Assembly: GCA_900321275.1 (NCBI GenBank)
Contig: ONVI01000029.1
Span: forward strand, 1-40,369
Origin: an uncultured Eubacteriales bacterium
Lineage (GTDB): Bacteria; Bacillota; Clostridia; Oscillospirales; Oscillospiraceae
Length of the DNA: 40,369 bases
Reading direction: 5' to 3'
Shown here in pieces: positions 18,240 through 40,369 of this stretch. Below the pieces are notes generated by a model that had not been told where the DNA came from, searched no databases, and saw nothing but the letters and a program-made list of their open reading frames with translations. The number at the start of each line of letters is the position of its first letter. Positions within the stretch are counted from its first letter, which is position 1. Made by a program: the position numbers and the translations under genes.

Positions 18240-18300
18240 TATCACAACAATCATGGGCGAATACGCACACAAAACTGTGCGTATTCGCCCATTGTCGTCA
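18240..18300. repeat. GGGCGAATAC hairpin repeat, copy 1
   Basis: Perfect 15-bp stem TGGGCGAATACGCAC (18254-18268) / GTGCGTATTCGCCCA (18277-18291), flanked by ACAACAAT and TTGTCG. A near copy, including flanks, lies at 35823-35885. It lies between two converging genes and may serve as a terminator, but has no strong T-run. Confidence 0.8.
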
Positions 18301-19170: not shown

Positions 19171-20655
19171 TTACTTATGATACAGCTTCTTGGCCTGGTA
19201 TTTCGGCTCAAAGGAGATGTTGACGCCGAGCTTTTTGAACAGATCCTCGTCGACATGGGAGAGGATCACGGTGGAGTGCGCCTCGCAGCCCTTGAGCTTG
19301 GAGAGCTGGTCAATGGCGAGGTCTGCCATGGGGTTTGTGACCGCGCAGATCGTCAGGGCGATCAGCACCTCGTCCGTGTGCAGGCGGGGGTTGTGGTTGC
19401 CGAGATGCTCCACCTTCAAGTGCTGGATGGGCTTGATGACGCCCGGCGCGATGAGGGGGAGCTTTTTGTCGATTCCGGCGAGGGCTTTCAGCGCGTTGAT
19501 GAGCGCCGCGGAGGACGCGCCGAGCAGGGAAGTGGTCTTGCCGGTGACGATGGTTCCGTCGTTTAATTCGATGGCGACGGCGGGACCGCCGCTTGCCTCG
19601 GCCTTCTCCAGCGCCGCGGCCACCACCGGGCGGTCGGCGGCGGAGATGTTGAGAGAGTTCATGATGAGCTCGATCTTGCGCATCTCCTCCGGCTCGCCGA
19701 GACCCTTGCGCACCGCGACGGCGGCGGCGTACCAGCGGCGGATGATCTCCTGCTTGCTGGCCTCCCGGCACACCTCGTCATCCGAGATGCAGTTGCCCAC
19801 CATGTTGACGCCCATATCCGTGGGGCTTTTGTACGGGCTCTCGCCGTATATGGATTTGAAGATCGCCTCCAGCACGGGGTAGATCTCCACGTCGCGGTTG
19901 TAGTTGACGGTGGTCTCGCCGTAGGCCTCCAGATGGTAGGGGTCGATCATGTTCACGTCGTCGAGGTCGGCGGTCGCCGCCTCGTATGCGAGATTCACCG
20001 GATGTTTGAGCGGCAGGTTCCAGACGGGGAAGGTCTCAAACTTGGCGTAGCCCGCGCTGACGCCGCGCTTGTGCTCATGGTAGAGCTGGCTGAGGCAGGT
20101 GGCCATTTTGCCGCTGCCGGGGCCGGGAGCCGTGACGACGACAAGACTGCGCTCGGTCTCGATATAGTCGTTTTTCCCAAAGCCCTCGTCCGAGACGATG
20201 AGGCCCACGTTCGCGGGGTAATCCGGGATGATGTAGTGCACATAGGTGCGCACGCCCAGAGCCTCCAGGCGCTTGCGGAAGGCGTCGGCGATGGCCTGGC
20301 CGCGGTAGTGCGTGATGACGACCGAGCCGATATACAGGCCGATGCCGCGGAAGGCGTCGATGAGGCGGAGGGTGTCGTCCTCGTAGGTGATGCCGAGGTC
20401 GCCCCTTCTCTTGCTGCGCTCGATATCGTCGGCGGAGATGGCGATGACGATCTCGGCCTCGTCCTTCATTTCCAGGAGCATGCGCACCTTGCTGTCCGGC
20501 TCAAAGCCGGGCAGGACGCGGGCGGCGTGGTAGTCGTCAAAGAGCTTGCCGCCGAATTCGAGATACAGCTTGCCGCCGAACTTGCCGATCCGGTCGCGGA
20601 TGTTCTGGGACTGGAGCTTGAGATATTTCTCGTTGTCAAAGCCGATAGCGTTCAT
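19171..20655 (-). CDS. DUF1846 family protein
   Basis: A conserved cytosolic protein of Firmicutes, 494 residues, the normal length; its biochemical role is not established. Recognisable parts are MNAIGFDNEKYLKLQSQNIRDR (shown by NEKYLKLQSQ), TAPGPGSGKMATCLSQLYHE (nucleotide-binding-like loop at about 167-176), AFETFPVWNLPLKHPVN-like text (KFETFPVWNLPLKHPVNLAY) and NMVGNCI. I start at the ATG at 20655 with GGGGGGAG seven bases upstream. A second ATG two codons earlier is too close to that site. The K+ channel gene follows after 15 bases of non-coding sequence plus its ribosome site. Confidence 0.9.
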   Translation of the reverse strand: MNAIGFDNEKYLKLQSQNIRDRIGKFGGKLYLEFGGKLFDDYHAARVLPGFEPDSKVRMLLEMKDEAEIVIAISADDIERSKRRGDLGITYEDDTLRLIDAFRGIGLYIGSVVITHYRGQAIADAFRKRLEALGVRTYVHYIIPDYPANVGLIVSDEGFGKNDYIETERSLVVVTAPGPGSGKMATCLSQLYHEHKRGVSAGYAKFETFPVWNLPLKHPVNLAYEAATADLDDVNMIDPYHLEAYGETTVNYNRDVEIYPVLEAIFKSIYGESPYKSPTDMGVNMVGNCISDDEVCREASKQEIIRRWYAAAVAVRKGLGEPEEMRKIELIMNSLNISAADRPVVAAALEKAEASGGPAVAIELNDGTIVTGKTTSLLGASSAALINALKALAGIDKKLPLIAPGVIKPIQHLKVEHLGNHNPRLHTDEVLIALTICAVTNPMADLAIDQLSKLKGCEAHSTVILSHVDEDLFKKLGVNISFEPKYQAKKLYHK

Positions 20656-20693
20656 GGTCATTCTCCCCCCGAAAAAACAATTCACGATTTCGT

Positions 20694-20722
20694 ATTTTAA
20701 CATAGAACCGCTCTCAGGACAA
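20694..20722 (-). promoter_or_regulatory. Sigma-A promoter for DUF1846 / K+ channel genes
   Basis: On the minus strand -35 TTGTCC (20717-20722), 17-base spacer, -10 TAAAAT (20694-20699), 39 bases upstream of the ATG. Confidence 0.7.
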
Positions 20723-20758
20723 GATGACAAAATCGGACTTTTTTTATTCACATTCTTG

Positions 20759-26745: not shown

Positions 26746-26774
26746 TTGAAACCAACTGTTTTCTATAGTATAAT
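26746..26774 (+). promoter_or_regulatory. Sigma-A promoter of the antiporter operon
   Basis: -35 TTGAAA (26746-26751), 17-base spacer, perfect -10 TATAAT (26769-26774), 44 bases before the mrpE start. It is one of the strongest promoters in the window and is the only one seen for the ten-gene unit. Confidence 0.88.
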
Positions 26775-26817: not shown

Positions 26818-27276
26818 ATGTTTGTTGTCCTGATGATCCTCTGGCTGATCTTCGCCGGGAGCGTGACGGTCACGAACCTGATCCTCGGCGCGATCGTCAG
26901 CGGGCTTATCACGCTCCTGTGTACAAGGTACATGGGATACAGCACGAAGCGCTTCTATCGGGGGTTCAGCAAGGCCGATGAGATCGCCTTTTACCTGGCC
27001 TTTCTGCTCAAGGAGATCGTGCGCGAGAACTTTGACGTGCTGCGCTTTGTCTACCGCAAGGGGCAGCCGAAGCCCATGCTGGTGCACTTTCACAGCAATA
27101 TCCGGACCGAGGCCCTGCGCGTGCTGGTGGCAAACTCCATCACCCTGACCCCCGGCACCTTCACGGTCAGGCTGGAGGGGGACGAGTTTGCCGTGCACGC
27201 CCTGGACGAATATTTCCAGATTGACATTGAGCACAGCGAATTTGCGAAGCTGGCAAAGAAGGTGGAGGAAGCGTGA
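26818..27276 (+). CDS. mrpE: Mrp/Mbh antiporter subunit E (MbhA-like)
   Basis: Small membrane subunit of the multi-subunit cation/proton antiporter. The first 45 residues are two hydrophobic helices. The family's LLKEIVRENFDVLRFVY and NSITLTPGTFTVRLEGDEFAVHALD are clear. 152 residues. GGAGGG precedes the ATG. It is the first gene of the operon, and its TGA overlaps the ATG of the next gene. The operon order that it opens is that of Mbh modules (A-B-C-D-E-F-G-H) rather than bacterial mrpABCDEFG. Confidence 0.9.
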   Translation: MFVVLMILWLIFAGSVTVTNLILGAIVSGLITLLCTRYMGYSTKRFYRGFSKADEIAFYLAFLLKEIVRENFDVLRFVYRKGQPKPMLVHFHSNIRTEALRVLVANSITLTPGTFTVRLEGDEFAVHALDEYFQIDIEHSEFAKLAKKVEEA

Positions 27277-27557
27277 TGGAAGACAAGCTCTTGACAGGCG
27301 TATTGATCCTGCTCGCCCTCTTTATGCTGGCCCTGATGCCGAAGGTAATCAGGGGCCCGCGCTTTACCGACCGCATCGTCGCCATCAATGCCATCAACAC
27401 GATGGTCACGGCCTCGATCTGTCTGCTGTCCCGTCTGCATCGGGCGGGGTATCTGCTGGACGTGGCGCTCATCTACGCGCTTTTGGGCTTTACGGCGACG
27501 ACGCTCTTGACAAGACTTTTGGCCGCCGACCGGCAGAAGGAGGGGAAGAAAAAATGA
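27276..27557 (+). CDS. mrpF: Mrp/Mbh antiporter subunit F (MbhB-like)
   Basis: 93-residue membrane subunit with three helices. The family core GPRFTDRIVAINAINTM and DVALIYALLGF are present. The ATG at 27276 overlaps the preceding stop (TGATG), and its own stop overlaps the next start (ATGA), which implies coupled translation. A GTG three bases earlier is an alternative start. Confidence 0.9.
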   Translation: MEDKLLTGVLILLALFMLALMPKVIRGPRFTDRIVAINAINTMVTASICLLSRLHRAGYLLDVALIYALLGFTATTLLTRLLAADRQKEGKKK

Positions 27558-27871
27558 TCCGTGTGATTCTGGCAGGGCTCTTCCTGGCCTTCGGGGTCTT
27601 CATGTTTTTCTCCGAAATTGTGGGCTTTTATAAGTTCACCTACGTCATGAACCGCATGCACGCCGCCGCCATGGGCGATACGCTGGGCATCGGCTCGATC
27701 CTCATTGCCGTCGGCATTCTCACCGGGGAGCTCGTCCCCATCTTAAAGCTTGTTCTGATTCTGGTCTTCATGTTCCTCACCGGCCCCGTGGTCACCCACC
27801 TGATCGCCGGGGCGGAGGTCGAGACCCACAAAAACGCCGGACACGAATACAGGGAGGTGGACAGACGGTGA
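27554..27871 (+). CDS. mrpG: Mrp/Mbh antiporter subunit G (MbhC-like)
   Basis: 105 residues with three membrane helices. FMFFSEIVGFYKF, RMHAAAMGDTLGIGSILIAVG (key part RMHAAAMGDTLG) and VLILVFMFLTGPVVTHLI match MrpG. The ATG overlaps the mrpF stop and the TGA overlaps the next GTG start. Confidence 0.9.
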   Translation: MIRVILAGLFLAFGVFMFFSEIVGFYKFTYVMNRMHAAAMGDTLGIGSILIAVGILTGELVPILKLVLILVFMFLTGPVVTHLIAGAEVETHKNAGHEYREVDRR

Positions 27872-28122
27872 AAATCGTAGAGTGCATTCTGCTCCTGCTG
27901 CTTATCATCACGGGCGTGACCGCGCCTTTGCAGAAGCACCCCCTGCTCATGGTCATCACGTTTACCACCTTCGGCCTGGTTATGAGCGTGATCTGGATGC
28001 TGCTCCAGGCCCCGGACCTTGCCATCACCGAGGCCGCCGTCGGCACGGGTGTGTCGGGCGTGCTGTTCTATCTCTGTCTGCGCCGCGTCCGCGCGATGCA
28101 GGGAACGGAGGATGAGAAATGA
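27868..28122 (+). CDS. MbhD-like subunit (DUF4040), separate gene
   Basis: 84 residues, three helices, equal to the MbhD part that in bacterial MrpA forms a C-terminal domain. QKHPLLMVITFTTFGLV and QAPDLAITEAAVGTGVSGVLF are its signature; the Asp/Glu of this last segment line the ion path in Mrp/Mbh structures. The GTG start overlaps the mrpG stop. Having MbhD as its own gene is the archaeal/Mbh arrangement. Confidence 0.87.
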   Translation: MKIVECILLLLLIITGVTAPLQKHPLLMVITFTTFGLVMSVIWMLLQAPDLAITEAAVGTGVSGVLFYLCLRRVRAMQGTEDEK

Positions 28123-28967
28123 GCGAACCGAATACCTTTTCCAAATGGGTGGACGGGGAAAAGCCTGTCCCGCTCAAGACGGCGTGGAAGCCCGTCCCCG
28201 AGAAAAAGCCGAAGAAAAAGCCCGCCGCCATCGACGACAAAAAGCGCTTCGACGGCTTTATGAAGCTCTACGCCCGGTGCGCGGTGGTCATCAGCGTTCT
28301 GATGCTGATCGTGCTGTTTATCGGCGCCATCGCCCTGCCGGAGTTTGCTGCGCCCGGAAACCCCACCGACAACGAGGTCGTGCATCGCTATGTCGGCTCT
28401 GCCGAGCAGGAGACCGGCGCGGAAAATGTCATCGCGGGCATGATTTTGAATTACCGCGGCTTCGATACCTTCGGCGAGAGCTGCGTGCTGTTTCTCGCGG
28501 TCTGCTGCGTGATGCTCCTGCTGTGGGCGACGAACGACAAGCTCAGGGCCGAGGCCCAAGCCTGCGAGAAGACCGCCCCGCGCGACGCGATCCTCGCCAA
28601 TGTGGCAAAGCTCCTGCTGCCGTGCGTGCTGTGCTTTGGGATGTGCGTGCTGTTTAACGGCCATGTCTCCCCGGGCGGCGGCTTCTCCGGCGGCTCCATC
28701 CTCGGCGCGGCGCTCATCCTCTTCGCCGTGGCCTTCGGCGCGGAGGCCGTGCAGCGCTTCTTTACCGAGAAGGTCTTCAACACCGTGCGCATCACCGGCC
28801 TCATGATCTACGCCGTGATGTTCGGCGTGTACATCTACCAGGGCGCAAACGGGGTGCAGTCGAATCTCGCCCACTATATCGTGCTGGTCATCGACATTGC
28901 CGTCGGCCTCGTGGTCATGAGCACGATGTACGGCTTCTATTCCTTCTACACGAAAGGAGAGCTGTGA
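28119..28967 (+). CDS. Fused MbhE-MrpB subunit
   Basis: 282 residues. A basic, proline/lysine-rich cytosolic segment (about 1-45, EKKPKKKPAAIDDKKR) is followed by an MbhE-like part (54-138, ETGAENVIAGMILNYRGFDTF) and an MrpB/MbhF part (155-280, with FNGHVSPGGGFSGG at 179-192). In Mbh these are two genes and in bacterial Mrp they are the MrpA tail and MrpB, so this is a fusion between neighbours. The N-terminal extension is unusual. The ATG overlaps the previous TGA. Confidence 0.85.
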   Translation: MSEPNTFSKWVDGEKPVPLKTAWKPVPEKKPKKKPAAIDDKKRFDGFMKLYARCAVVISVLMLIVLFIGAIALPEFAAPGNPTDNEVVHRYVGSAEQETGAENVIAGMILNYRGFDTFGESCVLFLAVCCVMLLLWATNDKLRAEAQACEKTAPRDAILANVAKLLLPCVLCFGMCVLFNGHVSPGGGFSGGSILGAALILFAVAFGAEAVQRFFTEKVFNTVRITGLMIYAVMFGVYIYQGANGVQSNLAHYIVLVIDIAVGLVVMSTMYGFYSFYTKGEL

Positions 28968-29341
28968 TGCTGCAGACGATCATCGACAACCGCTTTGCCG
29001 TCGCGGCGGTCATCCTTTTCGTGACGGGCTTTGTGAACATGATGGTTCACCCGAACCTCATCAAAAAGGTCGTGTCCTTCAACATCATGGACTCGGCCAC
29101 CTTCCTGATGCTGGCAAGCCGCGGCATGATCGCCGGGCGCACCGCCGCCATCCTCACCGACGGCGGGGCCGACGTGACGCGCTACGTCAATCCCATCCCC
29201 GCGGGGCTCGTGCTCACGGGCATCGTGGTCTCCGTCTCGGTCAGCGCCTTTTCCCTCGCCCTGATCCAGCGCATCTACGGCACCTACGGCACCGTCGACA
29301 TGCGGGAGCTGCTGGAAGCCATGAAGAAGAGGGGGGAGTGA
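28967..29341 (+). CDS. mrpC: Mrp/Mbh antiporter subunit C (NuoK-like)
   Basis: 124 residues with three helices, homologous to complex I NuoK. HPNLIKKVVSFNIMDSATFL and NPIPAGLVLTGIVVSVSVSAFSLAL (key part PAGLVLTGIVVS) are the family signature. GGAG lies seven bases before the ATG at 28967, which overlaps the preceding stop. A GTG three bases earlier is possible. Confidence 0.9.
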   Translation: MLQTIIDNRFAVAAVILFVTGFVNMMVHPNLIKKVVSFNIMDSATFLMLASRGMIAGRTAAILTDGGADVTRYVNPIPAGLVLTGIVVSVSVSAFSLALIQRIYGTYGTVDMRELLEAMKKRGE

Positions 29342-29345
29342 AGCG

Positions 29346-30830
29346 ATGCCGTTTGCCTGGAATCTCCCCTATTTGAGCGTCTTTCTCACGATGGTTACGG
29401 CGATTTTGCTCTCCGTGCTCCCCGGGGCGAAGCGGGCGTACCGGATCACGGTATGCGTCGCTGCCGCTGTGGCCGGGATGTCGCTTGCTTTTCTCGTCTT
29501 CATCGCGAACGCCGACGCCTCCTACGCCTTCACCATGGGCAAGTTCCCCGCCCCCTTCGGCAATGAGATCAAGTTCGGCCCCCTCCAGGGGATCTTCGCC
29601 TATGTCTTTTCTTCCGTAATGTGCCTGTCGCTGCTCGGCGGCAGGGAGGAGCTCTTTGAGGACGTCGACCCCAAGAAGATGGGTCTTGCCTGCGTCATGT
29701 TCAACATGGTGCTGGCAAGTCTGCTGGTGCTGAGCTACACCAACGACGCCTTCACCGCCTACGTCTTTATCGAGATCAGCACCATCGCGGCCTGTGCCCT
29801 GGTCATGATCAAGGACTCCGGCCCGACGCTGGTGGCCACCGTGCGCTACCTCTTCATGAGCCTGCTGGGCTCCGGCCTGTTCCTGTTTTCGATCATCCTG
29901 CTCTACGCCATCACCGGGCATCTGCTCATGCCCCAGCTCACCGAGAGCGTGAAAAGGCTCATGGCGGACGGGTCTTACACCAAAGTCCTCGCCCTGCTGC
30001 TGGGCATGATGACGGCGGGTCTCGGCGTCAAGTCCGCCATGTTCCCCTTCCACCGCTGGCTCCCCGACGCCCACGGCACGGCGACGACCTCCTCCTCCGC
30101 GGTTCTGTCCGGTCTGGTGGTCAAGGGCTACGCGGTGCTGCTCATCACCATGTATGTCCGCGTCTTCACCCTCGACACCGTGCGCGCCTTCCATATCCAC
30201 GACGCGGTCTTCGCCCTGGGCTTCTGCGGGATGATCCTCGGCTCCGTCATGGCGATCCGCGAGACCCACGCAAAAAGGATGCTGGCCTATTCGTCTGTTG
30301 CCCAGCTCGGCTATGTGTTCATGGGCATCGGCCTCGGCACCCCCGCGGGCGTCGCGGCGGCCTGCTTCCAGATCCTCGCCCACGCGTTTACCAAGCCCCT
30401 GCTCTTCGTCTCGGTGGGGCGTCTCGCCTCCACCGTGGGACACGACAAGCAGCTCAGATCCCTGCGCGGCACCGCCTGGGGCTGCCCGCTGGCGGGCCTC
30501 GGCTTCGGCGTCGGCGCGCTTTCGATGGTGGGCATCCCGCTCTTCGGCGGTTTTGCCGCGAAGGTGAATTTCTCCACCGCCTCCATCTTCGGGGACGAGA
30601 AGGTCGCCCTGACGCTCGGCGTGCTGGCCCTGTCCTCAATTCTGAACGCGCTCTACTACATCCCGGCGCTCATCAATATCTGGAGCGAGAAAAACCCCAA
30701 CGCCAAAGACGCCGAAAAGGACTACACCGCCACGGCGGCGATCGTCCTGCTTGCCGCCGGGGTGCTGTTTCTCGGCCTGCGCTTCACGCCCGTGATGGAC
30801 CTCATTGTCCGCGGGCTGGAGCTCATGTGA
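29346..30830 (+). CDS. Antiporter-like subunit 1 (MrpD/MbhH type)
   Basis: 494-residue NuoL/M/N-type ion-translocating subunit. The conserved charges of the family are present: Glu143 in YVFIEISTI, Lys229 in GLGVKSAMFPFHRWLPDAH, Lys260 in LSGLVVKGYAV, and Lys in AHAFTKPLLF. The motif AYSSVAQLGYVFMG follows. The FPFHRWLPDAHG and SSAVLSGLV segments are closest to MrpD, so this is the regular D/H subunit. It starts five bases after mrpC. Confidence 0.88.
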   Translation: MPFAWNLPYLSVFLTMVTAILLSVLPGAKRAYRITVCVAAAVAGMSLAFLVFIANADASYAFTMGKFPAPFGNEIKFGPLQGIFAYVFSSVMCLSLLGGREELFEDVDPKKMGLACVMFNMVLASLLVLSYTNDAFTAYVFIEISTIAACALVMIKDSGPTLVATVRYLFMSLLGSGLFLFSIILLYAITGHLLMPQLTESVKRLMADGSYTKVLALLLGMMTAGLGVKSAMFPFHRWLPDAHGTATTSSSAVLSGLVVKGYAVLLITMYVRVFTLDTVRAFHIHDAVFALGFCGMILGSVMAIRETHAKRMLAYSSVAQLGYVFMGIGLGTPAGVAAACFQILAHAFTKPLLFVSVGRLASTVGHDKQLRSLRGTAWGCPLAGLGFGVGALSMVGIPLFGGFAAKVNFSTASIFGDEKVALTLGVLALSSILNALYYIPALINIWSEKNPNAKDAEKDYTATAAIVLLAAGVLFLGLRFTPVMDLIVRGLELM

Positions 30831-30846
30831 AAGGGGGCATGAGAAG

Positions 30847-32307
30847 ATGTTGATGGTACTCTCATTCCTGCTCCCCGTTGTCGGCGCGGTGTTGGTCTTC
30901 CGCGAGACGGACAGCGCGAAGCGGCAGAAGCTCACGATCATCTCCGTGATTGCGGCCGCGATCCTCGCTGTCGCCGCAGCCTTCCTCGGCCAGCTGACCG
31001 AGTTTTCGCGCGAATTTACCCTTCTGCGCCTGAGCGACACCCTGGCGCTGACCTTCGCCGCGGACGGGCTGGGGCTCTTCTTCATCGCCCTGGTCGGCTT
31101 TATCTGGACCTTTGTCCAGTTCCACGCCTTCGGCTACATGAAGCACGAGGGCAGGGAAAGCCAATTCTTCGGCTTCTTCCTGCTGACCTATGCGGCCCTC
31201 ATCGCCCTCGCCTTTGCGGCAAATGCCGAGACGCTCTACATGTGCTTTGAGCTCATGACCCTCTGCTCCATGCCGCTGGTGCTGCATAACGGCTCCGAGC
31301 AGTCCCGGCGGGCAAGCTTCGCCTACCTCGGGTACTCGACCCTCGGCGCGTCGCTGGCGCTGCTGGGCTTCTTCCTTCTCGCCGCCCAGGGCAACAACCT
31401 CACGTTTATTCCCGGCGGCGGCGGACAGCTCACCGGCGATCCGAAGACCCTGTCGGCCGCGGCCTTTCTGATCATCCTCGGCTTCGGCGCGAAGGCCGGC
31501 ATGGTGCCGCTGCAGATGTGGCTGACGGAGGCGCACCCCGTGGCCCCCTCGCCCGCGAGTGCCGTGCTGTCCGGCCTCATCACCAAGGGCGGCGTACTCG
31601 CAATTATCCGCTGCACCTTCCAGCTCTTCGGGCGGGAGATGCTCCGCGGTACCTGGGTACAGACCGCGATCCTCGTTTTAGCGATCGTGACGATCTTCAC
31701 CGGTTCCATGCTGGCGCAAAGGGAAAAGCTTCTCAAAAAGCGGCTGGCTTACTCCACGGTCTCGAACGTCTCCTATGTGCTGTTCGGCCTCTTCGTGTTT
31801 GACGAGGTGGGCATGGGCGTCCCCGGGGCGTTTCTGCAGATCGTCTTCCACGCGCTGGCCAAGGACGCGCTCTTCCTCTGCGCGGGCTCTGTCATCTTTG
31901 CCACCGGCAAAACGAAGGTGGACGAGCTCAAGGGGATCGGAAAGCAGATGCCTGTCACCATGTGGTGTTTTGCCATCGCATCCCTGTCCCTGATCGGCAT
32001 TCCCCCGATGGGCGGCTTCTTTGCCAAGTACCTGCTCGCCATGGGGGCCCTGGATACCGGTACGACCCTCGGCCTCGTCGGCGTGGCGGTGCTGATGGTC
32101 TCGGCCCTGCTCACGGCCTTCTACCTGCTGCCCATCGTCTCGGCGGCCTTCTTCCCCGGAAGGGATTTTGACGCGGGCGAAAAATGCGAGGTGCCGAAAA
32201 CCATGCTGGTCCCGCAGATCGTCTTCGCGGGTCTCACGGTACTGCTCGGCATGTTCCCGAACGTGCTGACTGCTTTCACAGCCATACTCGACGGCTGGGT
32301 GCTGTAA
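30847..32307 (+). CDS. Antiporter-like subunit 2 (NuoL/M type)
   Basis: 486 residues of the Proton_antipo_M family. Conserved charges: Glu135 in CFELMTL, Lys216 in GFGAKAGMVPLQMWLTEAHP, Lys247 in SGLITKGGVLA, and Lys in HALAKDALFLCAG. The motif AYSTVSNVSYVLFG is shared with subunit 3. Start ATG 30847 is preceded by GGGGG; another ATG lies two codons later. This is the second of four such subunits and the first that has no place in a standard Mrp complex unless it acts as the MrpA core. Confidence 0.85.
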   Translation: MLMVLSFLLPVVGAVLVFRETDSAKRQKLTIISVIAAAILAVAAAFLGQLTEFSREFTLLRLSDTLALTFAADGLGLFFIALVGFIWTFVQFHAFGYMKHEGRESQFFGFFLLTYAALIALAFAANAETLYMCFELMTLCSMPLVLHNGSEQSRRASFAYLGYSTLGASLALLGFFLLAAQGNNLTFIPGGGGQLTGDPKTLSAAAFLIILGFGAKAGMVPLQMWLTEAHPVAPSPASAVLSGLITKGGVLAIIRCTFQLFGREMLRGTWVQTAILVLAIVTIFTGSMLAQREKLLKKRLAYSTVSNVSYVLFGLFVFDEVGMGVPGAFLQIVFHALAKDALFLCAGSVIFATGKTKVDELKGIGKQMPVTMWCFAIASLSLIGIPPMGGFFAKYLLAMGALDTGTTLGLVGVAVLMVSALLTAFYLLPIVSAAFFPGRDFDAGEKCEVPKTMLVPQIVFAGLTVLLGMFPNVLTAFTAILDGWVL

Positions 32308-32319
32308 GGAGGGGTGGAT

Positions 32320-33792
32320 ATGCGTATACTGACAATTTTATGCGTGCTCTTCCCCGTTCTCGCGGGCGCGGCGCTCTTTGTATGGCGGCCGCAGGATCGG
32401 AAGCTCCGCAACCGCTACGCGATCACCGTGGTCGGGATCAACGCCGTCTTTGTCCTCACTACGGCGCTGCTCTCCGCTGTAAACGGCGCGGACAGCATGG
32501 CGGTGCATATTGCGGACTTAAGCCCCATGCTCTCGATCGCCTTCCGGCCCGACGGGGTGAGCCTCGTCTTCGGCTGCATCATCGGCGTTCTCTGGCCCGT
32601 GACCACGCTCTACGCCTTCTCCTACATGGCGCACGAGGGGCGGGAGAATCTGTTTTTCGGCTTCTTCATCATCACCTTCGGCGTGGTGGCGGGCATTGCG
32701 TACTCGGCAAACTTCTTTACCCTCTACCTCTGCTATGAGTTCATGACCCTGGTGACCCTGCCGCTCGTCATGCACGAGATGGACGACAAGGCCCGCGCAG
32801 CGGGAAAGAAGTACGTCCTCTATTCCATGACCGGCGCGGCGCTGGTGTTCATCTGCCTGATGTACTTCTGCCGCTATGCCGATTCCCTCGCCTTCACCTA
32901 CGGCGGGATTCTCAACCTGGACAAGGTGAAGGGACACGAAAAGGAGCTCATGACCGTGTTCGTCCTGGCCTTCTTCGGCTTTGGCGTCAAGGCGGCGATC
33001 TTCCCCTTCCACCGGTGGCTGCCCGCGGCGTCGGTGGCGCCGACCCCGGTCACGGCGCTGCTTCACGCGGTGGCGGTGGTCAAGTCCGGCGCGTTCGCGG
33101 TGATGCGCCTGGTGTACTTCGGCTTCGGCTGCGACTTCCTGCGCGGCACCTGGGCGCAGTACATCGTCCTCGCGGCCTCGGCGTTTACGGTGATGTTCGG
33201 CTCGGTGATGGCGCTGAGAATGCCGCACCTCAAGAGAAGGCTTGCGTATTCCACCGTCTCCAATCTGAGCTATATCCTGGTGGCCTTCGCCTCCATGAGC
33301 CCCGCCGGGCTCGTGGGCGGACTGCTGCACATGATCTTCCACGCGGTCATCAAGATCTCTCTCTTTTTCTGCGCGGGCGCGATGCTCCACCACAACGAGC
33401 TGGAGTATGTCTGCGACATGGAGGGACTGTCGAAAAAGATGCCCGTGACCTGCGGGGTGTTTTTGCTGGCGTCCCTTGCCCTGATGGGGATTCCGCCCTT
33501 CGGCGGCTTCCTCAGTAAGTGGACGATCGGCACCGCCGCCGCGGCAAACATGAACTGGGCGGGCTATCTCGGCGCGGCGTCCCTGATCGTCTCGGCGATT
33601 TTGACCACGCTCTATATGATGAGCGCCGCCGTGCGCTTCTACTTCCCGCTGAAGTCCGCGCCGGAACAGCCGGAGCGCGTCCATGAGGCCGACCGCCTGA
33701 TGACCTGGCCGCTTACGTTTCTCATGGGGCTGCTCTGCGTTCTGTCGCTTTGCTCCGCGCCCCTGAGCGCATGGATCGGAGGGCTGGTATAA
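32320..33792 (+). CDS. Antiporter-like subunit 3 (NuoM type)
   Basis: 490 residues. Conserved charges: Glu140 in LCYEFMTLVTLP, Lys224 in GFGVKAAIFPFHRWLPAAS, Lys255 in AVAVVKSGAFA, and Lys in HAVIKISLFFCAG. The motif AYSTVSNLSYILVAF is present. PTPVTALLHAVAVVKSG resembles NuoL/HyfB-style proteins more than MrpD. AAGGAGG lies nine bases before the ATG at 32320. Its stop overlaps the next start (TAATG). Confidence 0.85.
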   Translation: MRILTILCVLFPVLAGAALFVWRPQDRKLRNRYAITVVGINAVFVLTTALLSAVNGADSMAVHIADLSPMLSIAFRPDGVSLVFGCIIGVLWPVTTLYAFSYMAHEGRENLFFGFFIITFGVVAGIAYSANFFTLYLCYEFMTLVTLPLVMHEMDDKARAAGKKYVLYSMTGAALVFICLMYFCRYADSLAFTYGGILNLDKVKGHEKELMTVFVLAFFGFGVKAAIFPFHRWLPAASVAPTPVTALLHAVAVVKSGAFAVMRLVYFGFGCDFLRGTWAQYIVLAASAFTVMFGSVMALRMPHLKRRLAYSTVSNLSYILVAFASMSPAGLVGGLLHMIFHAVIKISLFFCAGAMLHHNELEYVCDMEGLSKKMPVTCGVFLLASLALMGIPPFGGFLSKWTIGTAAAANMNWAGYLGAASLIVSAILTTLYMMSAAVRFYFPLKSAPEQPERVHEADRLMTWPLTFLMGLLCVLSLCSAPLSAWIGGLV

Positions 33793-35732
33793 TGCTTGTG
33801 CTGATGGTTTTTCTGCCCGTTATTGTGGCAATTTTGTGCTATCCCCTCTGCGGGAAATCCGAAAAGGCATGGACGACGCCCTGCCTCGTGGTGACCGGCG
33901 CGGTGTTCCTGATGGCCCTGTCCCTGCTCTGGAGCCCTGAGCTTACAGAAGGCGTGGACGGCTTCTGCGGCTTCGGCGTCCACTTCCGCGCGGGCGGGAT
34001 GCGCACCGTGATGGCGATTTTGGCCGCCTTCATGTGGGTGATGACGGCGCTGGCTTCCCCCGAGTATTTCGAGGGCGCGCGGCTCAACGGGCGCTACTTC
34101 TGCTTCTATCTCTGGACCCTCGGCGCGCTGGAGGGCGTGTTCCTCGCGGCCGATCTCATGACGCTTTTCATCTTCTTTGAGATGATGAGCTTTACCTCCT
34201 ATGTCTGGGTGGCGCAGAACGAGACGCCCCAGGCCATCCGCGCGGGAGAAACGTACCTGTTCATCGCGGTCATCGGCGGCCTCACCATGCTGATGGGGCT
34301 CTTCCTGCTGGATAACGCGGTGGGAATCCTGACCTTTGAAAACATCCTTGAAAAAGCGCCGGAGATGCGGCCATCTCTCCGCTGGGCGGTCGGAATCTGC
34401 GCACTGGTGGGCTTCGGCGCCAAGGCGGGCATGTTCCCGCTGCACATCTGGCTTCCCAAGGCGCACCCCGTGGCCCCCGCCCCCGCCAGCGCCCTGCTCT
34501 CCGGCATCCTGACCAAGAGCGGCGTCTTCGGCGTGATCGGGATTACCTGCTGGCTCTTCGATGGCGTTCCCGGCTGGGGGAATTTCCTGCTCGTGCCCGC
34601 GGTGATCACCATGTTCCTCGGGGCGCTGCTGGCGGTGTTCTCTGTCGACCTCAAGCGCACCCTCGCCTGCTCGTCCATGAGCCAGATCGGCTTCATCCTC
34701 ACGGGCGTGTCGATGTGTTCCCTTCTGGGCGAGCACGGCTCCATCGCCGCCTGCGGCGCGGTGCTGCATATTCTGAACCACTCGCTGATTAAACTGACCC
34801 TCTTCATCGCGGCGGGCGTCGTGTACTTCAATGTCCACTCGCTGGACTTGAACGACGTGCGCGGCTTCGGCAGGGGCAAGCCGCTGCTGATGCTGCCCTT
34901 CCTCTCAGGCACCTTAAGCATCGCGGGCATCCCCGGCTTCGGCGGCTATATCAGCAAGACGCTTTTGCATGAGGGGATCGTGGAGTACTGCGTCCACCTC
35001 GCGGAGCACGGTCACAGCGCCGCACTCTACCGCGCGGTGGAGTGGATTTTCCTGCTCTCCGGCGGGCTGACGCTTGCCTACATGGCGCGGCTTTTCTACA
35101 TCCTCTTCATTGCCGCAAAGCCGGAGCACCAGCATCACAAGCAGGGCCGATACATGACCCCCATGACGGCCGCGGTGCTGGTGATCGGCGGGATTTTGAT
35201 GCCCCTGCTCGGCAGCTTTCCCCATCAGACCATGGACAAAATCGCGGCCTATGCCCTGCCTTTCTTCCGCAGGGAGCCCCTGGCCCACGCGGTACACTAC
35301 TTCTCGCCTGCAAACCTCAAGGGCGCGGCTGTCTCCGTCACCATCGGCGCGCTGGTCTTCGTCTTTGTCGGCATGAAGCTTCTGACAAAACGCGAGGACG
35401 GACACGAGGTTTATCGCAATGTCTGGCCCTCGGGGCTTGATCTGGAGGACGCGGTTTACCGTCCCGCCCTGCGAGGCCTCGCTTTTGTCGGCGGCGCGGC
35501 GGCGAGACTGGTGGAGACCTGCGGCGCGCTGCTCATCTACGGCACGGTCGACCTTCTCTTCCTCGGAGCCAAGGACAAGGTGATCCCGCCCGAGGACGAT
35601 CAGTTCTCCGCCTATGCCAGACAGAGCGAGCGGGGCCGCGTTGCCAGAAGCTTCTCGTCCGACCTCCTGTGGGCCGCCTGCGGCGTACTGGCGCTGCTGC
35701 TTTTGGCGGCGTGGAATATGCTGGGCGCGTAG
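33792..35732 (+). CDS. Antiporter-like subunit 4, long form (NuoL/MrpA-like)
   Basis: 646 residues, about 150 longer than the other three. Conserved charges: Glu130 in IFFEMMSFTSY, Lys211 in GFGAKAGMFPLHIWLPKAHPV, Lys242 in SGILTKSGVFG, and Lys in NHSLIKLTLFIAAG. After about residue 480 come extra segments: a helix near 525-545 (VTIGALVFVFVGMKLL), a hydrophilic stretch with DLEDAVYRPALRG, and a last helix LLWAACGVLALLLLA. That layout recalls NuoL/HyfB long C-termini. GGAGGG precedes the ATG. It is the last gene; an inverted-repeat element starts 14 bases after its stop. Confidence 0.85.
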   Translation: MLVLMVFLPVIVAILCYPLCGKSEKAWTTPCLVVTGAVFLMALSLLWSPELTEGVDGFCGFGVHFRAGGMRTVMAILAAFMWVMTALASPEYFEGARLNGRYFCFYLWTLGALEGVFLAADLMTLFIFFEMMSFTSYVWVAQNETPQAIRAGETYLFIAVIGGLTMLMGLFLLDNAVGILTFENILEKAPEMRPSLRWAVGICALVGFGAKAGMFPLHIWLPKAHPVAPAPASALLSGILTKSGVFGVIGITCWLFDGVPGWGNFLLVPAVITMFLGALLAVFSVDLKRTLACSSMSQIGFILTGVSMCSLLGEHGSIAACGAVLHILNHSLIKLTLFIAAGVVYFNVHSLDLNDVRGFGRGKPLLMLPFLSGTLSIAGIPGFGGYISKTLLHEGIVEYCVHLAEHGHSAALYRAVEWIFLLSGGLTLAYMARLFYILFIAAKPEHQHHKQGRYMTPMTAAVLVIGGILMPLLGSFPHQTMDKIAAYALPFFRREPLAHAVHYFSPANLKGAAVSVTIGALVFVFVGMKLLTKREDGHEVYRNVWPSGLDLEDAVYRPALRGLAFVGGAAARLVETCGALLIYGTVDLLFLGAKDKVIPPEDDQFSAYARQSERGRVARSFSSDLLWAACGVLALLLLAAWNMLGA

Positions 35733-35746
35733 GAAGAATAAAGGGG

Positions 35747-35957
35747 CTGTCTCAAAATGCATGTTGAACCAAAACCGTAGAGGTCGATCCACAGATCGAC
35801 TCGTGCGGAAAAAGCGATATTTACAACAATAATGGGCGAATACATACACGAAATTGTACGTATTCGCCCATTGTCGGTATAATATCACCGTTCATGCTGC
35901 CTGGCTGATGAGGGCATCGGCTCATGCAATTTCACATGGCTGTGCATTTTGAGACAG
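35747..35957. mobile_element. MITE-like composite element with 15-bp terminal inverted repeats
   Basis: Perfect 15-bp terminal inverted repeats: CTGTCTCAAAATGCA (35747-35761) and TGCATTTTGAGACAG (35943-35957). Inside, in order, are AGGTCGATC-CACA-GATCGACT (35781-35801), the GGGCGAATAC hairpin (35833-35870), GGCTGATG-AGGG-CATCGGCT (35903-35922) and TTTCACATGGCTGTGCATT (35930-35948). The same order of blocks occurs at 15005-15182. The element fills the 244-base gap between the antiporter operon and the VWA gene, where no gene is seen. Confidence 0.8.
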
Positions 35958-35976
35958 TAACTATAATAATCCCGTA

Positions 35977-38565
35977 TTACCAGGCCTCGTTGCGGCGGCG
36001 CAGCCAGAGAAGCAGAGCGCCCGTCGAGCCGATCCCGGTCAGGGCGGCCAGCGCCCATAATGCGTAACGGATCGTCATGTTTTTCTCCGTGAGCGTGACG
36101 GGGACGTCGGCGCTCAGGCCGTATTCGTCCGTCGCGGTGACGGTGAAGGCGGCTTTTTTCTGCCCCGTCATGTTCACCCGCAGGGTCGTGCCGTCGATTT
36201 CCGCCGCGCCGCCCAGATCGTCGGACAGCGTATACGTCAGCTTCGTCCCCTTCGGGTCGCGGAACAGCACGTCAAGGCGTGTTTCCCACAGCCCCTTGTT
36301 TTTCTGGAACAGCCCGGTTTTGACCGTCTCCGTGATGGCGCCCGTTGTCGCGGCGGGGCCCGGCAGCCTGATCTTGAAGGGTATGACGGCCTGCCGCTCG
36401 ATCGTGTCCGTGGCCGTCAGGGTAAATTCCGCCTCCTTCAGCGCGTCAAAGTCCACCGCCAGCGCATCCTCCGTGAGCGCGACCGCGCCGCCGTAATCAT
36501 CCGAAAGCACGTATTCCAGCGGGCCGCCTTTGGGATCGTCAAAGAGCTCATCCAGCCCGATTTCCCATTGGAAGCCATCCAGACGGCCCTGCTTGAGGAC
36601 ATTGTTGACCACATCGACCTTTGCGGTGACGCGGGGGACGGTAAAGTCGAAGGAAACCTGCGCGCTCTGCCCGGTCAGATCCGTCGCCGTCAGGTCAAAC
36701 GCCGCCCGGTTCAGCTCACTGAGATCCACCAGCAGGACGCCGTCCCCGATTGTAACCGCACCGCCGCAGTCGTCCGACAGCGCATAATCCAGCGGGGCGT
36801 CCTTGGGCTCTGAAAACAGCTCGTCCAGGTCAATCTCCCAGCGGGGGCCGAGAGGCTGCCCGTGCTCTGAAAGGCTCATCACGCTGCGCAGCTTCGCCTG
36901 CACGGGCGGCGCCGTCAGCTCGAAAGCGATCTCGGCGCTCTGTCCCATCTGATCCTCCGCCGTCAGCGTGAAGGCGTAGGTTTCCGCATCGCGCAGGGCC
37001 GCCGTCAGCACGCCGTCCTCCACCGTCAGCACACCGCCGAAGTTGTCCGAGAGCGTGTATGTAAGGCCAGCGCTCCTGCCGGTGCCGAAGAGCTCATCCA
37101 GCTCCAGCATCCAGTCGCCGTTCCGGAACTGCCCGAATTCAAGCATGTCCGTAATCCGCTCGACCTGGGGCTTGAGGGGCCGGTTTTCCACACGGAGCTC
37201 CAGACTGTTGGAGCATACCTCAAACCCGCCGACCCCGAGCGCGGCTTCGATCCGATAGTCCCCGCCCGCGGGGAAGCTGATTTCGCATTCGTACCCGCCG
37301 TCAATGATCTCCATAGCGTATTCGCGCACGGTTCCGGTCGAGAGCTGCTCCACCGTGAGGCGTGCGTCCATTTCCGCGAGCTGCCCGTCCGTGAGATGCG
37401 GCACGCCGGGATCGTCGACCCAGGCAGAGAAGACATAGGGCGTGAGGGCTTCGTATTTTTCAAGATCGGGTTCTACGATTTCAAGCGTGAGGCGCATGGA
37501 GGCGTTGTAGACCATCGTGACGTCAACCCAATCCTCGGGCGCCCCCTTCAAATGGACGTTCCAGACACCCGGATGCGGATGGGGGATCTTCACGAGTCTG
37601 TAACGGGCACTGTCGAGATCATGGCCTGTAATGTCGAAGAGCGTTTCGTCGGGGCGAAAAATCGCCATCTCCACGCGCTCTCCGCCGCCCTCTCTGCGCA
37701 GGTCGTCGCTGTCCTCGGCGCGCAGATGCTCACCCTCGATCACGACGTTGACCTCCTCCACGCCGAAGCTCGGCACGAGAAAGCGGTATTCCGCCTCGCC
37801 CTGTTCGGAGAAGGAGACGCGCTCCGACCCGGTATAGCGGGCGTTGTTGATGATCGCGTAAAAGCGCCGGAAGGCCGCCGCCAGATCCTCCGGGCGGCTC
37901 ACCTCTTCAAACGCGCCGTGCGTCCCGTGGGTATAGAGCTGAAACTCGATCCGGCCGTCCTCGGCAATGCCGTCCACGTTCAGGAGGATGCCGTTGATGG
38001 TGATGCCCTGCGCCTTCGCGGTCTCCAGCGCCTGATCCGCAATCGCCCAGGACCGCAGCTTTCTGCCGGAAATGTCATCCGTCGAGAAATCCGTCATGCC
38101 GTCGGAAAACAGGAGGATCATGCAGGGCAGGCCGTTTTCCTCGTGCATGCCCGTCAAAAGCTCCGTCGCCCGCAGGACGGCGCTGCCGATATCCGTGTCG
38201 TAGCTGGGGGTATAATACTCCAGCTCCCGGATCAGCGCCTTTTTCTGCTCCATGCCGTCAAGCTGCTCCAAGGCGGCCTCATAGCGGATCCGCTCGTCAA
38301 AGACGATCGCGCCCACGTTGTTCCCGCTCTCCGTCAGGAGCCCCAGGAACAGGCGCAGCGCGTCAAAGCGCAGCCCGTCGGGGTCGGTTCCGTGTCCCCG
38401 CTGATTCCGGAGACTGCCGCTCTTGTCCACAACCAGCACCACGTTGAAGCGGTTGACCGCATCACTCGGCGCCTCGGCGAGGGCAGAACCCGGCAGGCCG
38501 AGCAGAAGGGAGAGGGAAAGCAGCAGCGCCATCGCGGCCGCGCACATCTTTTTCTGTATTGTCAT
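35977..38565 (-). CDS. Secreted, membrane-anchored VWA protein with four cadherin-like repeats
   Basis: 862 residues. Signal peptide about 1-30 (cleavage after SALA). The von Willebrand A domain (about 38-245) has an intact MIDAS: DKSGS at 47-51, Thr124 in SYDTDIGSA and SDGMTD at about 154-159. Residues 250-460 are beta-rich. Four repeats of about 90 residues follow (about 465-553, 554-643, 644-735, 736-827), each with a WxxxLDELF-like start (DVLF in the fourth), a TYTLSD..GG core and an AFTLTATD-type end. A C-terminal helix (833-855) and LRRRNEAW anchor it, so the bulk lies outside the cell. Function unknown; adhesion or scaffold is the simplest idea. GGAGGT lies upstream of the ATG; the nuclease-like gene ends 35 bases before. 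Confidence 0.8.
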   Translation of the reverse strand: MTIQKKMCAAAMALLLSLSLLLGLPGSALAEAPSDAVNRFNVVLVVDKSGSLRNQRGHGTDPDGLRFDALRLFLGLLTESGNNVGAIVFDERIRYEAALEQLDGMEQKKALIRELEYYTPSYDTDIGSAVLRATELLTGMHEENGLPCMILLFSDGMTDFSTDDISGRKLRSWAIADQALETAKAQGITINGILLNVDGIAEDGRIEFQLYTHGTHGAFEEVSRPEDLAAAFRRFYAIINNARYTGSERVSFSEQGEAEYRFLVPSFGVEEVNVVIEGEHLRAEDSDDLRREGGGERVEMAIFRPDETLFDITGHDLDSARYRLVKIPHPHPGVWNVHLKGAPEDWVDVTMVYNASMRLTLEIVEPDLEKYEALTPYVFSAWVDDPGVPHLTDGQLAEMDARLTVEQLSTGTVREYAMEIIDGGYECEISFPAGGDYRIEAALGVGGFEVCSNSLELRVENRPLKPQVERITDMLEFGQFRNGDWMLELDELFGTGRSAGLTYTLSDNFGGVLTVEDGVLTAALRDAETYAFTLTAEDQMGQSAEIAFELTAPPVQAKLRSVMSLSEHGQPLGPRWEIDLDELFSEPKDAPLDYALSDDCGGAVTIGDGVLLVDLSELNRAAFDLTATDLTGQSAQVSFDFTVPRVTAKVDVVNNVLKQGRLDGFQWEIGLDELFDDPKGGPLEYVLSDDYGGAVALTEDALAVDFDALKEAEFTLTATDTIERQAVIPFKIRLPGPAATTGAITETVKTGLFQKNKGLWETRLDVLFRDPKGTKLTYTLSDDLGGAAEIDGTTLRVNMTGQKKAAFTVTATDEYGLSADVPVTLTEKNMTIRYALWALAALTGIGSTGALLLWLRRRNEAW

Positions 38566-38600: not shown

Positions 38601-39815
38601 TTACCAGTCGTCATTCTCCGTGCCGTAAACGGGCTGTTCATAGACGGAGTCGTCATATCTGAGCTTGTCGGTCAAATTGCTTCCCGCCATTTTGTCGATG
38701 GCGCTCTCCGGCAAATCAAAAATACTGTTCTTTGCAGACTGCGCGGTTTGCGTCTCCTTTGTCGAAGCGGGCGCGCTTTGAGAGCTGCCTGCGGCGGCGC
38801 TGCCAGCAGGGGAGGAGGCCTTCTTTTCCTTCTCCTTTTCAGCGGCAATCGCCTGACAGAAATCGCAGCGGTCGTAATATCCCATTTCAAGGAGCTCATG
38901 CGGCGTTCCGGTGAAATCCCGCCGGTATTCGGCAGGAGGCAGATGGCCGCAGTCTCCCGTGTGGTATATCTTTGTCTGTGTATTGAGAATATAGGCCGAT
39001 GTTTTGGACTTGCCTGCCGCGCTCGCTGCCGCCGTATTGGCTGTGGCACTCAAATTGGAAAACGATCCCACCGAAGGCGCGTCCGAACCGGGGCGCGTCT
39101 GGTACTGATGCAGGCGGAGGATATCGCCCGCCGTGGACATGACCTCGACCGAGGGGCTCTGGGCGCTCTTTCCGCTGCGATAGTCGATCGTGACGCCGGG
39201 CTGGATGTTGTACAGGAAGACGTTGAGGGAGATCGTCCGTCCCGCGTCCTCCGCGGAATACGCCTCCAGCTGCACCCCGTACGGCACCAGCTCGTCCCCA
39301 TGATAGACCGGCGTTGCGCGGTAGAGGATGTGATACGCCGTGCGCGAGACGAAACCGGCGACCAGATCTTCAAAAGGCCGCAGCCCCTCCGCGCGGAGAA
39401 AGCGGGTGCCGGTGAAGACGTTGCGTGCGTCCGGGCCCGAGCCGGAAAGCGCCGGGGAAATGAGCTGGCAGACAGAGTACAGATAGCCCCCGTCGATCAC
39501 GTCGTCGTAGCGCACACTCTCCCAGCCGACGGGGAGATAAGCGTCGCTCTCCGCGCGCAGCTCCGCCGGACGGGACGCGCTGCTGAGACAGGCCGTCGCC
39601 GGGCCGGGTCTGCCGAGAGCGTCGAGCTCGCTGTACCGGATGTAGTCCTCCCCGGTAAAGTCGTCGGGCGAAAAGGCCGGGACAAAGCCGCTCAGCTCGA
39701 TCGCCGCCGCGCCGCCGAATTCCGGAATGTCGGGGGCGGCATACGCCGAAGAGGGAACAAGCAGAGAAAGCATCAGCAGCAGAGGCAAAATAACCGTTAG
39801 GATCCGAATACGCAT
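38601..39815 (-). CDS. Secreted nuclease-fold protein with lost catalytic motif
   Basis: 404 residues with a signal peptide (about 1-27). Residues 58-215 follow the pattern of secreted DNA/RNA non-specific (EndA-like) endonucleases: YSELDALGRPGPA, ARNVFTGTRFLRAEG, HILYRATPVYHGDELVPYGVQ and NVFLYNIQPGVTIDY. At the place of the catalytic RGHLIG motif it reads VCQLIS (115-120), so the general-base His is Gln117. A second small domain (274-323) has AYILNTQTKIYHTGDCGHL and DRCDFCQ, the Cys/His module found at the C-terminus of such nucleases. A low-complexity Ser/Ala/Lys tail follows. The ATG at 39815 has GGAGG ten bases upstream. It forms a unit with the VWA gene. It is probably a non-catalytic binding protein. 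Confidence 0.75.
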   Translation of the reverse strand: MRIRILTVILPLLLMLSLLVPSSAYAAPDIPEFGGAAAIELSGFVPAFSPDDFTGEDYIRYSELDALGRPGPATACLSSASRPAELRAESDAYLPVGWESVRYDDVIDGGYLYSVCQLISPALSGSGPDARNVFTGTRFLRAEGLRPFEDLVAGFVSRTAYHILYRATPVYHGDELVPYGVQLEAYSAEDAGRTISLNVFLYNIQPGVTIDYRSGKSAQSPSVEVMSTAGDILRLHQYQTRPGSDAPSVGSFSNLSATANTAAASAAGKSKTSAYILNTQTKIYHTGDCGHLPPAEYRRDFTGTPHELLEMGYYDRCDFCQAIAAEKEKEKKASSPAGSAAAGSSQSAPASTKETQTAQSAKNSIFDLPESAIDKMAGSNLTDKLRYDDSVYEQPVYGTENDDW

Positions 39816-39884
39816 ATCCGTTGGGCCTCCTTCCGAACGACGCCGCCCCGGAGAGAGCGACGGGCACAGCCATTTTCTGACACC

Positions 39885-39913
39885 ATTATAAGAGATTTCC
39901 GAATTCATATCAA
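39885..39913 (-). promoter_or_regulatory. Sigma-A promoter of the nuclease-like / VWA genes
   Basis: On the minus strand -35 TTGATA (39908-39913), 17-base spacer, perfect -10 TATAAT (39885-39890), 70 bases before the ATG. This points to vegetative rather than sporulation control. Confidence 0.85.
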
Positions 39914-39936
39914 GCCTAAACGACGCTTCCGTCCGA

Positions 39937-39972
39937 CAAAAAACGGCCAGACCGCGATTCTGCGATCTGACC
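39937..39972 (-). terminator. Rho-independent terminator of spoVT
   Basis: On the minus strand GGTCAGATCGC pairs with GCGGTCTGGCC (with G-U pairs) over a six-base loop, followed by GTTTTTT. It is placed 14 bases after the spoVT stop. Confidence 0.8.
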
Positions 39973-39985
39973 GAATCCGGATTTG

Positions 39986-40369
39986 TCAGCTTTCCATCTG
40001 CTTGCCGAGGAAGGCGGCCACCGTCTGGGCGAGGCGGCACTCGATCTCCCCGGCGGGCGGCGCGTCCTTTGGAGCGACGAAGAGGACGCCGCCCATCACA
40101 TCCCCCTCGGAAATCACGGGCGCGGCGACGGAGACGATGAACTTCTCGTCACTGTCGCTGACGATGACGCCGCTGCCGCCGCTGTGACGGTAGAGGGCGC
40201 GTTCCTCGAGAATCTCGCTCAGGCGCGGGCTGATCGGCTTTTCCAGCAGCTCCCGCCGCCCGCCGCCTGCGATGGCGATTACCGCGTCCCGGTCGCACAC
40301 CGCCGCAATCGCGTCGGTCGAGCGGCGCAGGCTGTCGCAGAGCTGCCCCGCAAAATCCCCCAGCTCCCC
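39986..40369 (-). CDS. spoVT: Stage V sporulation protein T, C-terminal part (cut by window edge)
   Basis: Only the C-terminal 127 residues are in the window; the frame is open through 40369, so the N-terminal AbrB-type DNA-binding domain lies outside. The visible part is the SpoVT GAF-like domain: GELGDFAGQL, DAIAAVCDRDAVIAIAGGGRRE (key part CDRDAVIAIAGG), VAAPVISEGDVMGGVLF and the ending RLAQTVAAFLGKQMES. SpoVT tunes forespore sigma-G genes. A possible internal GTG at 40300 is not the true start. It is followed by a terminator, so it is transcribed separately from the next gene. Confidence 0.9.
   Translation of the reverse strand, partial: GELGDFAGQLCDSLRRSTDAIAAVCDRDAVIAIAGGGRRELLEKPISPRLSEILEERALYRHSGGSGVIVSDSDEKFIVSVAAPVISEGDVMGGVLFVAPKDAPPAGEIECRLAQTVAAFLGKQMES

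Follow-up and report, generated by a model that had tools for sequence, protein, structure and literature searches.

A probable stand-alone group 3 Mrp antiporter with four antiporter-like subunits in gut Clostridia

The ten-gene operon among described Mrp systems

Group 3 Mrp complexes were defined as lacking mrpA and carrying mrpD only, sometimes in several copies (Haja and others, PMC8415708), and were characterised by irregular gene order, with two mrpD genes in the cyanobacterium Aphanothece (Ito and others, PMC5703873) and two additional NuoM/L-like genes in a group 3 locus of Nitrospira (PMC7784846). The stand-alone Mrp of Pyrococcus furiosus is encoded by mrpEFGBB'CD and deletion work pointed to Na+/H+ exchange (PMC8415708). 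In related redox, complex I-like enzymes the antiporter-like chain can consist of a single subunit or extend to three or four (Steiner and Sazanov, PMC7419157). A model for the two-subunit Mrp proposed two H+ per Na+ (PMC9568556). The locus considered here is an operon of ten same-strand genes at positions 26818-35732 of a 40,369-nucleotide stretch from an uncultured Eubacteriales bacterium of the Oscillospiraceae (GCA_900321275.1, contig ONVI01000029.1). This stretch, called the window, is the entire contig C20 of a 2.74-Mb draft genome (93 % complete). Judging from sequence comparisons, the operon probably encodes an antiporter of the group 3 Mrp type that exchanges monovalent cations for protons, stands alone and has four proton modules.

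The genes overlapped or were separated by at most 16 nucleotides, in the order MrpE, MrpF, MrpG, MbhD, a fused MbhE-MnhB and MrpC, followed by four NuoL/M/N-type antiporter-like subunits, here S1 to S4 (Table 1). All ten proteins exceeded the curated cut-off, against which every Pfam match was judged, for MNHE, MrpF, MnhG, MbhD, MbhE and MnhB (in one protein), Oxidored_q2 (MrpC/NuoK) and, four times, Proton_antipo_M. Gene coordinates and Pfam matches thus confirmed a Mbh-like operon with four antiporter-like subunits, as first recognised in a reading made from the sequence alone. The Mbh-like gene order proposed there was also borne out, with the refinement that the MbhE/MnhB fusion matched MbsE of the archaeal MBS better than MBH.

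No mrpA gene was present: the four PF00361 proteins were separate and none contained MbhD or MnhB domains, while subunits E, F, G, B and C were all found. S4 nevertheless resembled MrpA-N and NuoL in its fold and possessed TM15, TM16 and a lateral helix (TM, transmembrane helix, numbered by homology), as did a S4 of Hungatella; since MbhD and MbhE are also there, the "missing" MrpA would be present in pieces. Residues of the proposed cation path were kept in the relatives, namely the MbhD glutamate (90/90), the first MrpF aspartate (90/90) and the MrpG proline (90/91), whereas at position 35 of MrpF the expected aspartate was replaced by asparagine in 89 of 90, as in other stand-alone group 3 loci.

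Compared with the stand-alone Mrp of P. furiosus, which shares the gene order of the front module and the absence of both an MrpA gene and a redox module, the operon encodes four antiporter-like subunits instead of one, and MbhE is fused to MnhB here but to MbhD there (PMC8415708). The MbhE/MnhB fusion, MbhD, C, G and S1 found their best match among solved chains in the MBS arm of P. furiosus (PDB 6u8y; Table 1). MrpF was almost as close to MBS, but its nearest solved chain belonged to MBH. The last subunit carries a lateral helix, as does MbsH' (PMC7684303); MBS differs by its two antiporter-like subunits and its sulfur-reducing redox arm. Group 1 and 2 Mrp (Bacillus, Anoxybacillus, Dietzia) contain homologues of E, F, G, C, B and the MrpA domains, and the fold of S4 was closest to MrpA, but they display two antiporter-like subunits, an undivided MrpA and the aspartate at MrpF position 35. 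Three-subunit stand-alone units, annotated on public plasmids of Peptoclostridium acidaminophilum and of the archaeon Natrononativus amylolyticus, shared the E-F-G-MbhD/E-B-C order, an asparagine in MrpF and the absence of adjoining redox genes; these have a single middle-type copy, and in Natrononativus neither the first subunit fell within the S1 clade nor the last within the S4 clade. Chadwick and co-workers reportedly described, in 2018, homologues of complex I that contain a fourth antiporter-like subunit and, by the title of that work (cited in PMC7419157), a higher pumping capacity. They would share the number four with the present locus but are redox-driven and no antiporters.

The sequence-only reading had considered a complex of this kind to be novel. 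This did not hold for the class, as group 3 Mrp with several mrpD (PMC8415708) and extra mrpD-like genes in a cyanobacterium and in Nitrospira (PMC5703873, PMC7784846) were already described and three-subunit relatives were annotated. It may hold for the copy number: among literature titles and abstracts, with subscription papers mostly outside the search, none dealt with a stand-alone Mrp with four antiporter-like subunits, nor with a rule for the MrpF asparagine. The class is known. What appears to be new is the number of four copies and the distribution of this form in gut Clostridia, as well as the series of one to four subunits and the marker in MrpF described below.

Conservation and the search for a redox partner

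MbhD was detected in 37 of 60 relative genomes, at 43 places, of which 42 were read (G020:C242 was left out). These comprised 31 redox-coupled Mbh operons and 11 ten-gene units; six of the latter were complete, including those of two genomes from other families, and five were ended by contig edges. When public genomes were scanned with the MbhE/B profile, at least 581 relatives were confirmed, and the best 80 by similarity were kept as loci, which is why they reflect conservation near the window and not the full range. Here 63 of the 80 displayed all ten genes in the same order (two with one split frame), 16 ran off their contig and one, from an Erysipelotrichaceae assembly (L089), showed only S1, S2 and S4, the last ended by the contig edge. 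Apparent E-G-F orders among relatives were an artefact of stop-to-stop frames sorted by start. Named carriers included Hungatella hathewayi WAL-18680, Schaedlerella arabinosiphila, Parablautia muri and Gemmiger sp. An120. The ten-gene unit is found in many gut bacteria and is no local oddity, in answer to the genome survey called for by the sequence-only reading.

The residues expected of ion channels were present in all four antiporter-like subunits. The TM5 glutamate, TM7 lysine and TM8 lysine were E143/K229/K260 in S1, E135/K216/K247 in S2 (numbered from the ATG at 30847), E140/K224/K255 in S3 (numbered from the ATG at 32320) and E130/K211/K242 in S4, and each subunit also carried the H..K pair and the TM12 lysine. 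The sequence-only reading had placed the TM5 glutamates and the TM7 and TM8 lysines correctly, and all of these channel residues proved invariant across orthologues in S1 (79/79), S2 (73/73) and S4 (69/69).

No redox module was attached. The J, K, L, N and M subunits of the Mbh/Mbs redox module were absent from the operon and from the loci of its relatives. Genome-wide tests covered 59 cluster-bearing genomes (those of the 11 relatives plus those holding 48 of the best 80 loci), some of which are incomplete drafts; counts of NuoH, PF00361 and Rnf/Nqr were taken in 33 of them, chosen by hand. The 49-kDa/NiFe subunit was not found in 47 of the 59 and NuoH was not found in 28 of the 33, and both genes were likewise missing from the four named strains. 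A complex I, with NuoH and a 49-kDa NuoD arm, was thus not recovered in most genomes, NuoB and NuoC not having been searched genome-wide. PF00361 genes numbered exactly four in 28 of the 33 genomes, while each of the five genomes with NuoH had five; in two genomes that gave five matches, a single frame accounted for two of them. Membrane subunits of Rnf/Nqr were present in 31 of the 33, so that another primary pump is usually available.

Two alternatives had been offered at the outset: a stand-alone antiporter, which is favoured here, and a membrane arm that would dock onto a redox arm from another locus, whether of a hydrogenase or of a ferredoxin- or NADH-oxidising kind, to give an energy-converting enzyme, which the genomes contradict. 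Gene order and the MbhE/B fusion do resemble the MBS membrane arm, and the window's genome does contain a 49-kDa subunit and NuoH. These, however, belong to a complete and separate Mbh-type hydrogenase operon (contig C64, 131-11194), which has a membrane arm of its own and encodes subunits like NuoH, NuoB and ferredoxin as well as HypA, HypE and HypD; the only 49-kDa/NiFe-type gene of this genome (two matches in one frame) lies there. This operon offers a natural internal comparison for the stand-alone unit of the same genome. The flanks of the best 80 loci revealed no conserved partner family either, the commonest recurring in 11, 11, 10 and 7 loci; some of these families are reading frames without gene evidence, and no family search was made of them. 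With 47 of 59 and 28 of 33 genomes devoid of the 49-kDa subunit and of NuoH, respectively, a docking arm is very improbable and was rejected. The 12 genomes that do possess a 49-kDa subunit nevertheless weigh against a stand-alone antiporter with four proton modules, together with a substitution in S3, the short lateral-helix region of the window and the MrpF asparagine, all discussed below; in each of the six of these 12 that were read, the 49-kDa locus was a separate Mbh operon. The stand-alone group 3 reading was retained because all parts of Mrp are present (S4, MbhD and MbhE amounting to a split MrpA), gene order and residues are conserved, redox genes are mostly absent and those of the window's genome sit in a separate, complete Mbh operon.

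It is unlikely that S2 and S3 are structural or regulatory subunits adding no proton path, in which case the complex would work as an ordinary two-module Mrp at about two H+ per Na+. In favour of this, a single class was seen to contain Mrp-like complexes that have anything from one to four of these subunits, and the TM8 lysine of S3 was replaced by asparagine in 7 of 70 orthologues. The lysine after the histidine and the TM12 lysine were each changed to arginine in 1 of 70. On the other hand, the TM5 glutamate, TM7 lysine and histidine were unchanged in all S2 (73/73) and S3 (70/70) proteins, and the TM12 lysine in 73/73 and 69/70, respectively, as expected of working channels.

Subunit number and the MrpF position

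An even sample of 196 genomes from the window's class contained MbhD in 29, the window's genome included, and all 31 places outside that genome were read. Stand-alone loci, meaning those without a NuoB-, NuoD- or NuoH-type gene within the stretch fetched, had four antiporter-like subunits in five cases, three in nine, two in two and one in ten; three further loci were redox-coupled and two were ended by contig edges. At L179 and L184, stand-alone operons with one or two antiporter-like subunits had NuoF/NuoG-like genes, possibly of an electron-bifurcating hydrogenase, a few kilobases away at most. One locus of this class (L171, genome G190, contig C4) encoded a redox complex of MBS/Mbx-like type, in which MbhE and MnhB were fused and the antiporter-like subunits numbered two.

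A careful tree was built from 104 antiporter-like subunits. Those in first position grouped together (100/99) whether their unit had three or four of them, as did the last (100/99) and the middle ones (99/95), with the exception of the first and last of Natrononativus. In the main four-subunit type, represented by 11 genomes, S1, S2, S3 and S4 each formed a clade (100/100), and S2 and S3 formed a clade together (97/92), which indicates that the fourth subunit arose by duplication of the middle one. A second four-subunit lineage (L158, with a split frame, and L160) had its third subunit placed apart, while its second grouped with a relative that has three subunits (100/100). A constraint uniting all subunits in third position was rejected (p-AU 0.030); as this constraint was named after the first tree had been seen, it is moderate evidence for two origins, and the duplication probably happened twice. 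The phylogeny proposed in the sequence-only reading was thus resolved for the S1 to S4 clades and for the S2/S3 sisterhood, but deep branches towards NuoL/M/N, MrpA/D and HyfB/D/F were weak, and one-to-one orthology with these proteins is not claimed. As a separate observation, a complex I-like operon on an Ensifer adhaerens plasmid (L148, 11116-25305) had four antiporter-like subunits, two of which branched with haloarchaeal Mrp subunits; it may represent Mrp subunits recruited into a redox complex.

The length of the lateral-helix region, counted in residues from Glu552 to TM16, was considered as a ruler of subunit number. Its median was 100 (64-161) for 72 proteins of four-subunit units and 88 (26-133) for 11 of three-subunit units; the Mbh subunit of the window's genome had 39, and E. 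coli NuoL, HyfB and HycC had 51, 69 and 45, respectively. The medians were suggestive but no rule was obtained: the window, together with 11 others of the 72, stood at the minimum of 64, and NuoL, HyfB and HycC did not fit.

Position 35 of MrpF was called invariably conserved as aspartate and placed on the Na+ path (Steiner and Sazanov, PMC7419157); Asp35Leu inactivates the Mrp of Anoxybacillus flavithermus, whereas in B. subtilis replacement by Glu or Asn did less damage (PMC7419157). The window's MrpF has asparagine there (Asn39, counted from GTG), and its family displayed asparagine in 89 and glycine in 1 of 90. All five solved MrpF chains that matched had aspartate. Within the class survey, the three redox-coupled loci had aspartate, while 25 of 26 stand-alone loci had asparagine and one had cysteine; of the two loci ended by contig edges, L157 had asparagine and L181 aspartate. 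Mbh loci of the genus had aspartate in all 30 alignable cases (one of 31 frames was too short and was left out), and both Peptoclostridium and Natrononativus displayed asparagine. Asparagine versus aspartate would thus mark stand-alone group 3 versus redox-coupled complexes; it is a marker and not yet a mechanism, as the two sets differ in ancestry as well as in coupling.

As the Na+ path is proposed to run past this residue, the complex may select another ion or use another path. An exchanger for another ion (K+, Ca2+ or NH4+), or a Na+-driven proton exporter serving acid tolerance, instead of a Na+ extruder, seems rather doubtful. The consistent aspartate-to-asparagine change would speak for it, as would the stand-alone Mrp of P. 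furiosus, thought to import Na+ and expel H+ at low pH (PMC8415708), and Rnf/Nqr could provide the Na+ gradient in most carriers. Against another ion stand the remaining cation-path residues, which were kept, and a high H+/cation ratio would disfavour Na+-driven proton export. A search for sodium-type ATP synthase c subunits gave 13 places in 7 genomes; by their ligand set, three F-type c subunits (L190, L195 and L196) presumably resemble Na+-binding types, which is a hint only and was not used.

Surroundings and proposed working of the operon

Table 1. Features of the ten-gene operon in the window
Feature	Position	Strand	Pfam match	Nearest solved chain	Remarks
Promoter-like site	26746..26774	+			TTGAAA-17-TATAAT, 11/12 consensus match only; ends 44 nt before first gene
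mrpE-like subunit, 152 aa	26818..27276	+	PF01899, 95.1 bits (cut-off 27)		
mrpF-like subunit, 94 aa from GTG	27273..27557	+	PF04066, 49.3 bits	MBH	alternative ATG 27276
mrpG-like subunit, 105 aa from ATG	27554..27871	+	PF03334, 72.7 bits (read from 27557)	6u8y_C (MBS)	
MbhD-like subunit, 84 aa	27868..28122	+	PF13244, 71.7 bits	6u8y_D (MBS)	part of MrpA C-terminal domain
Fused MbhE + MnhB, 282 aa	28119..28967	+	PF20501 + PF04039	6u8y_E (MbsE of MBS), best match of profile, E 7.8e-31	
mrpC/NuoK-like subunit, 125 aa	28964..29341	+	PF00420, 56.3 bits	6u8y_G (MBS)	
S1 antiporter-like, 494 aa	29346..30830	+	PF00361, 185.7 bits	6u8y_H (MBS)	
S2 antiporter-like, 486 aa from ATG	30847..32307	+	PF00361, 173.5 bits (read from 30841)	6cfw_H (MBH)	one of two middle-type copies; tree sister of S3
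S3 antiporter-like, 492 aa	32314..33792	+	PF00361, 191.2 bits	8e9g_L (NuoL)	alternative ATG 32320; second middle-type copy
S4 antiporter-like, 646 aa	33792..35732	+		6cfw_H (MBH)	C-terminal lateral helix; MrpA-N/NuoL fold

As the sequence-only reading had stated, the operon ends at an inverted-repeat element (35732-35972), with ends GGGGCTGTCTCAAAATGCA and TGCATTTTGAGACAGT and an inner hairpin, and no hydrogenase, ferredoxin or quinone gene was found between the operon and the contig end. The element had 38 matching pieces across the genome, itself included, with others near window positions 18244 and 15121, and looks like a dispersed non-coding mobile element. Genes from there to the contig end were unrelated and on the opposite strand, with von Willebrand A, endonuclease and SpoVT-type domains. 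They included an 862-aa protein (35977-38565, minus strand) with an N-terminal von Willebrand A domain and no NCBIfam match, adjoined by a 479-aa protein with a nonspecific endonuclease domain (38601-40040). Elsewhere in the window, a DUF1846 protein (19171-20751, minus strand; PRK13663, 828.7 bits, cut-off 631) was located between an ion-channel gene (PF00520) and secA.

Assembly, subunit order in the membrane, transport, ion, direction and stoichiometry are inferred for the four-subunit complex. The stand-alone antiporter would have S4, MrpA-N/NuoL-like and with its lateral helix, at one end, followed by S3, S2 and S1, the last expected to lie against MrpC, while MbhD and MbhE/B with F, G and E would form the cation path at the opposite end. 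By homology to solved Mrp structures, protons would enter via the four linked subunits, driven by the membrane potential, and charge coupling of the kind proposed for Mrp would expel Na+ (or another cation) through the MrpC/MbhD/MbhE/F/G region. With several proton modules serving one cation path, the H+/cation ratio would be higher, as the four intact modules suggest, and a cation gradient could be held at low proton-motive force.

Taken together, the loci may form a gear series, a view put forward tentatively and with some doubt: one invariant cation module (E-F-G-MbhD/E-B-C) would be combined with one to four proton modules, the H+/cation stoichiometry rising with their number; the four-module form would be a low-force transformer of gut Clostridia, arisen at least twice, and the MrpF aspartate-to-asparagine change would mark complexes driven by ion gradients only versus redox-driven ones. 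How many H+ are moved per antiporter-like subunit is a question central to research on complex I as well as on Mrp, and natural, redox-free complexes differing mainly in subunit number, from one to four, would allow this count to be measured directly. As the sole complex with such subunits in 28 of the 33 genomes, the four-module Mrp is relevant to how its gut bacterial carriers manage sodium and pH.

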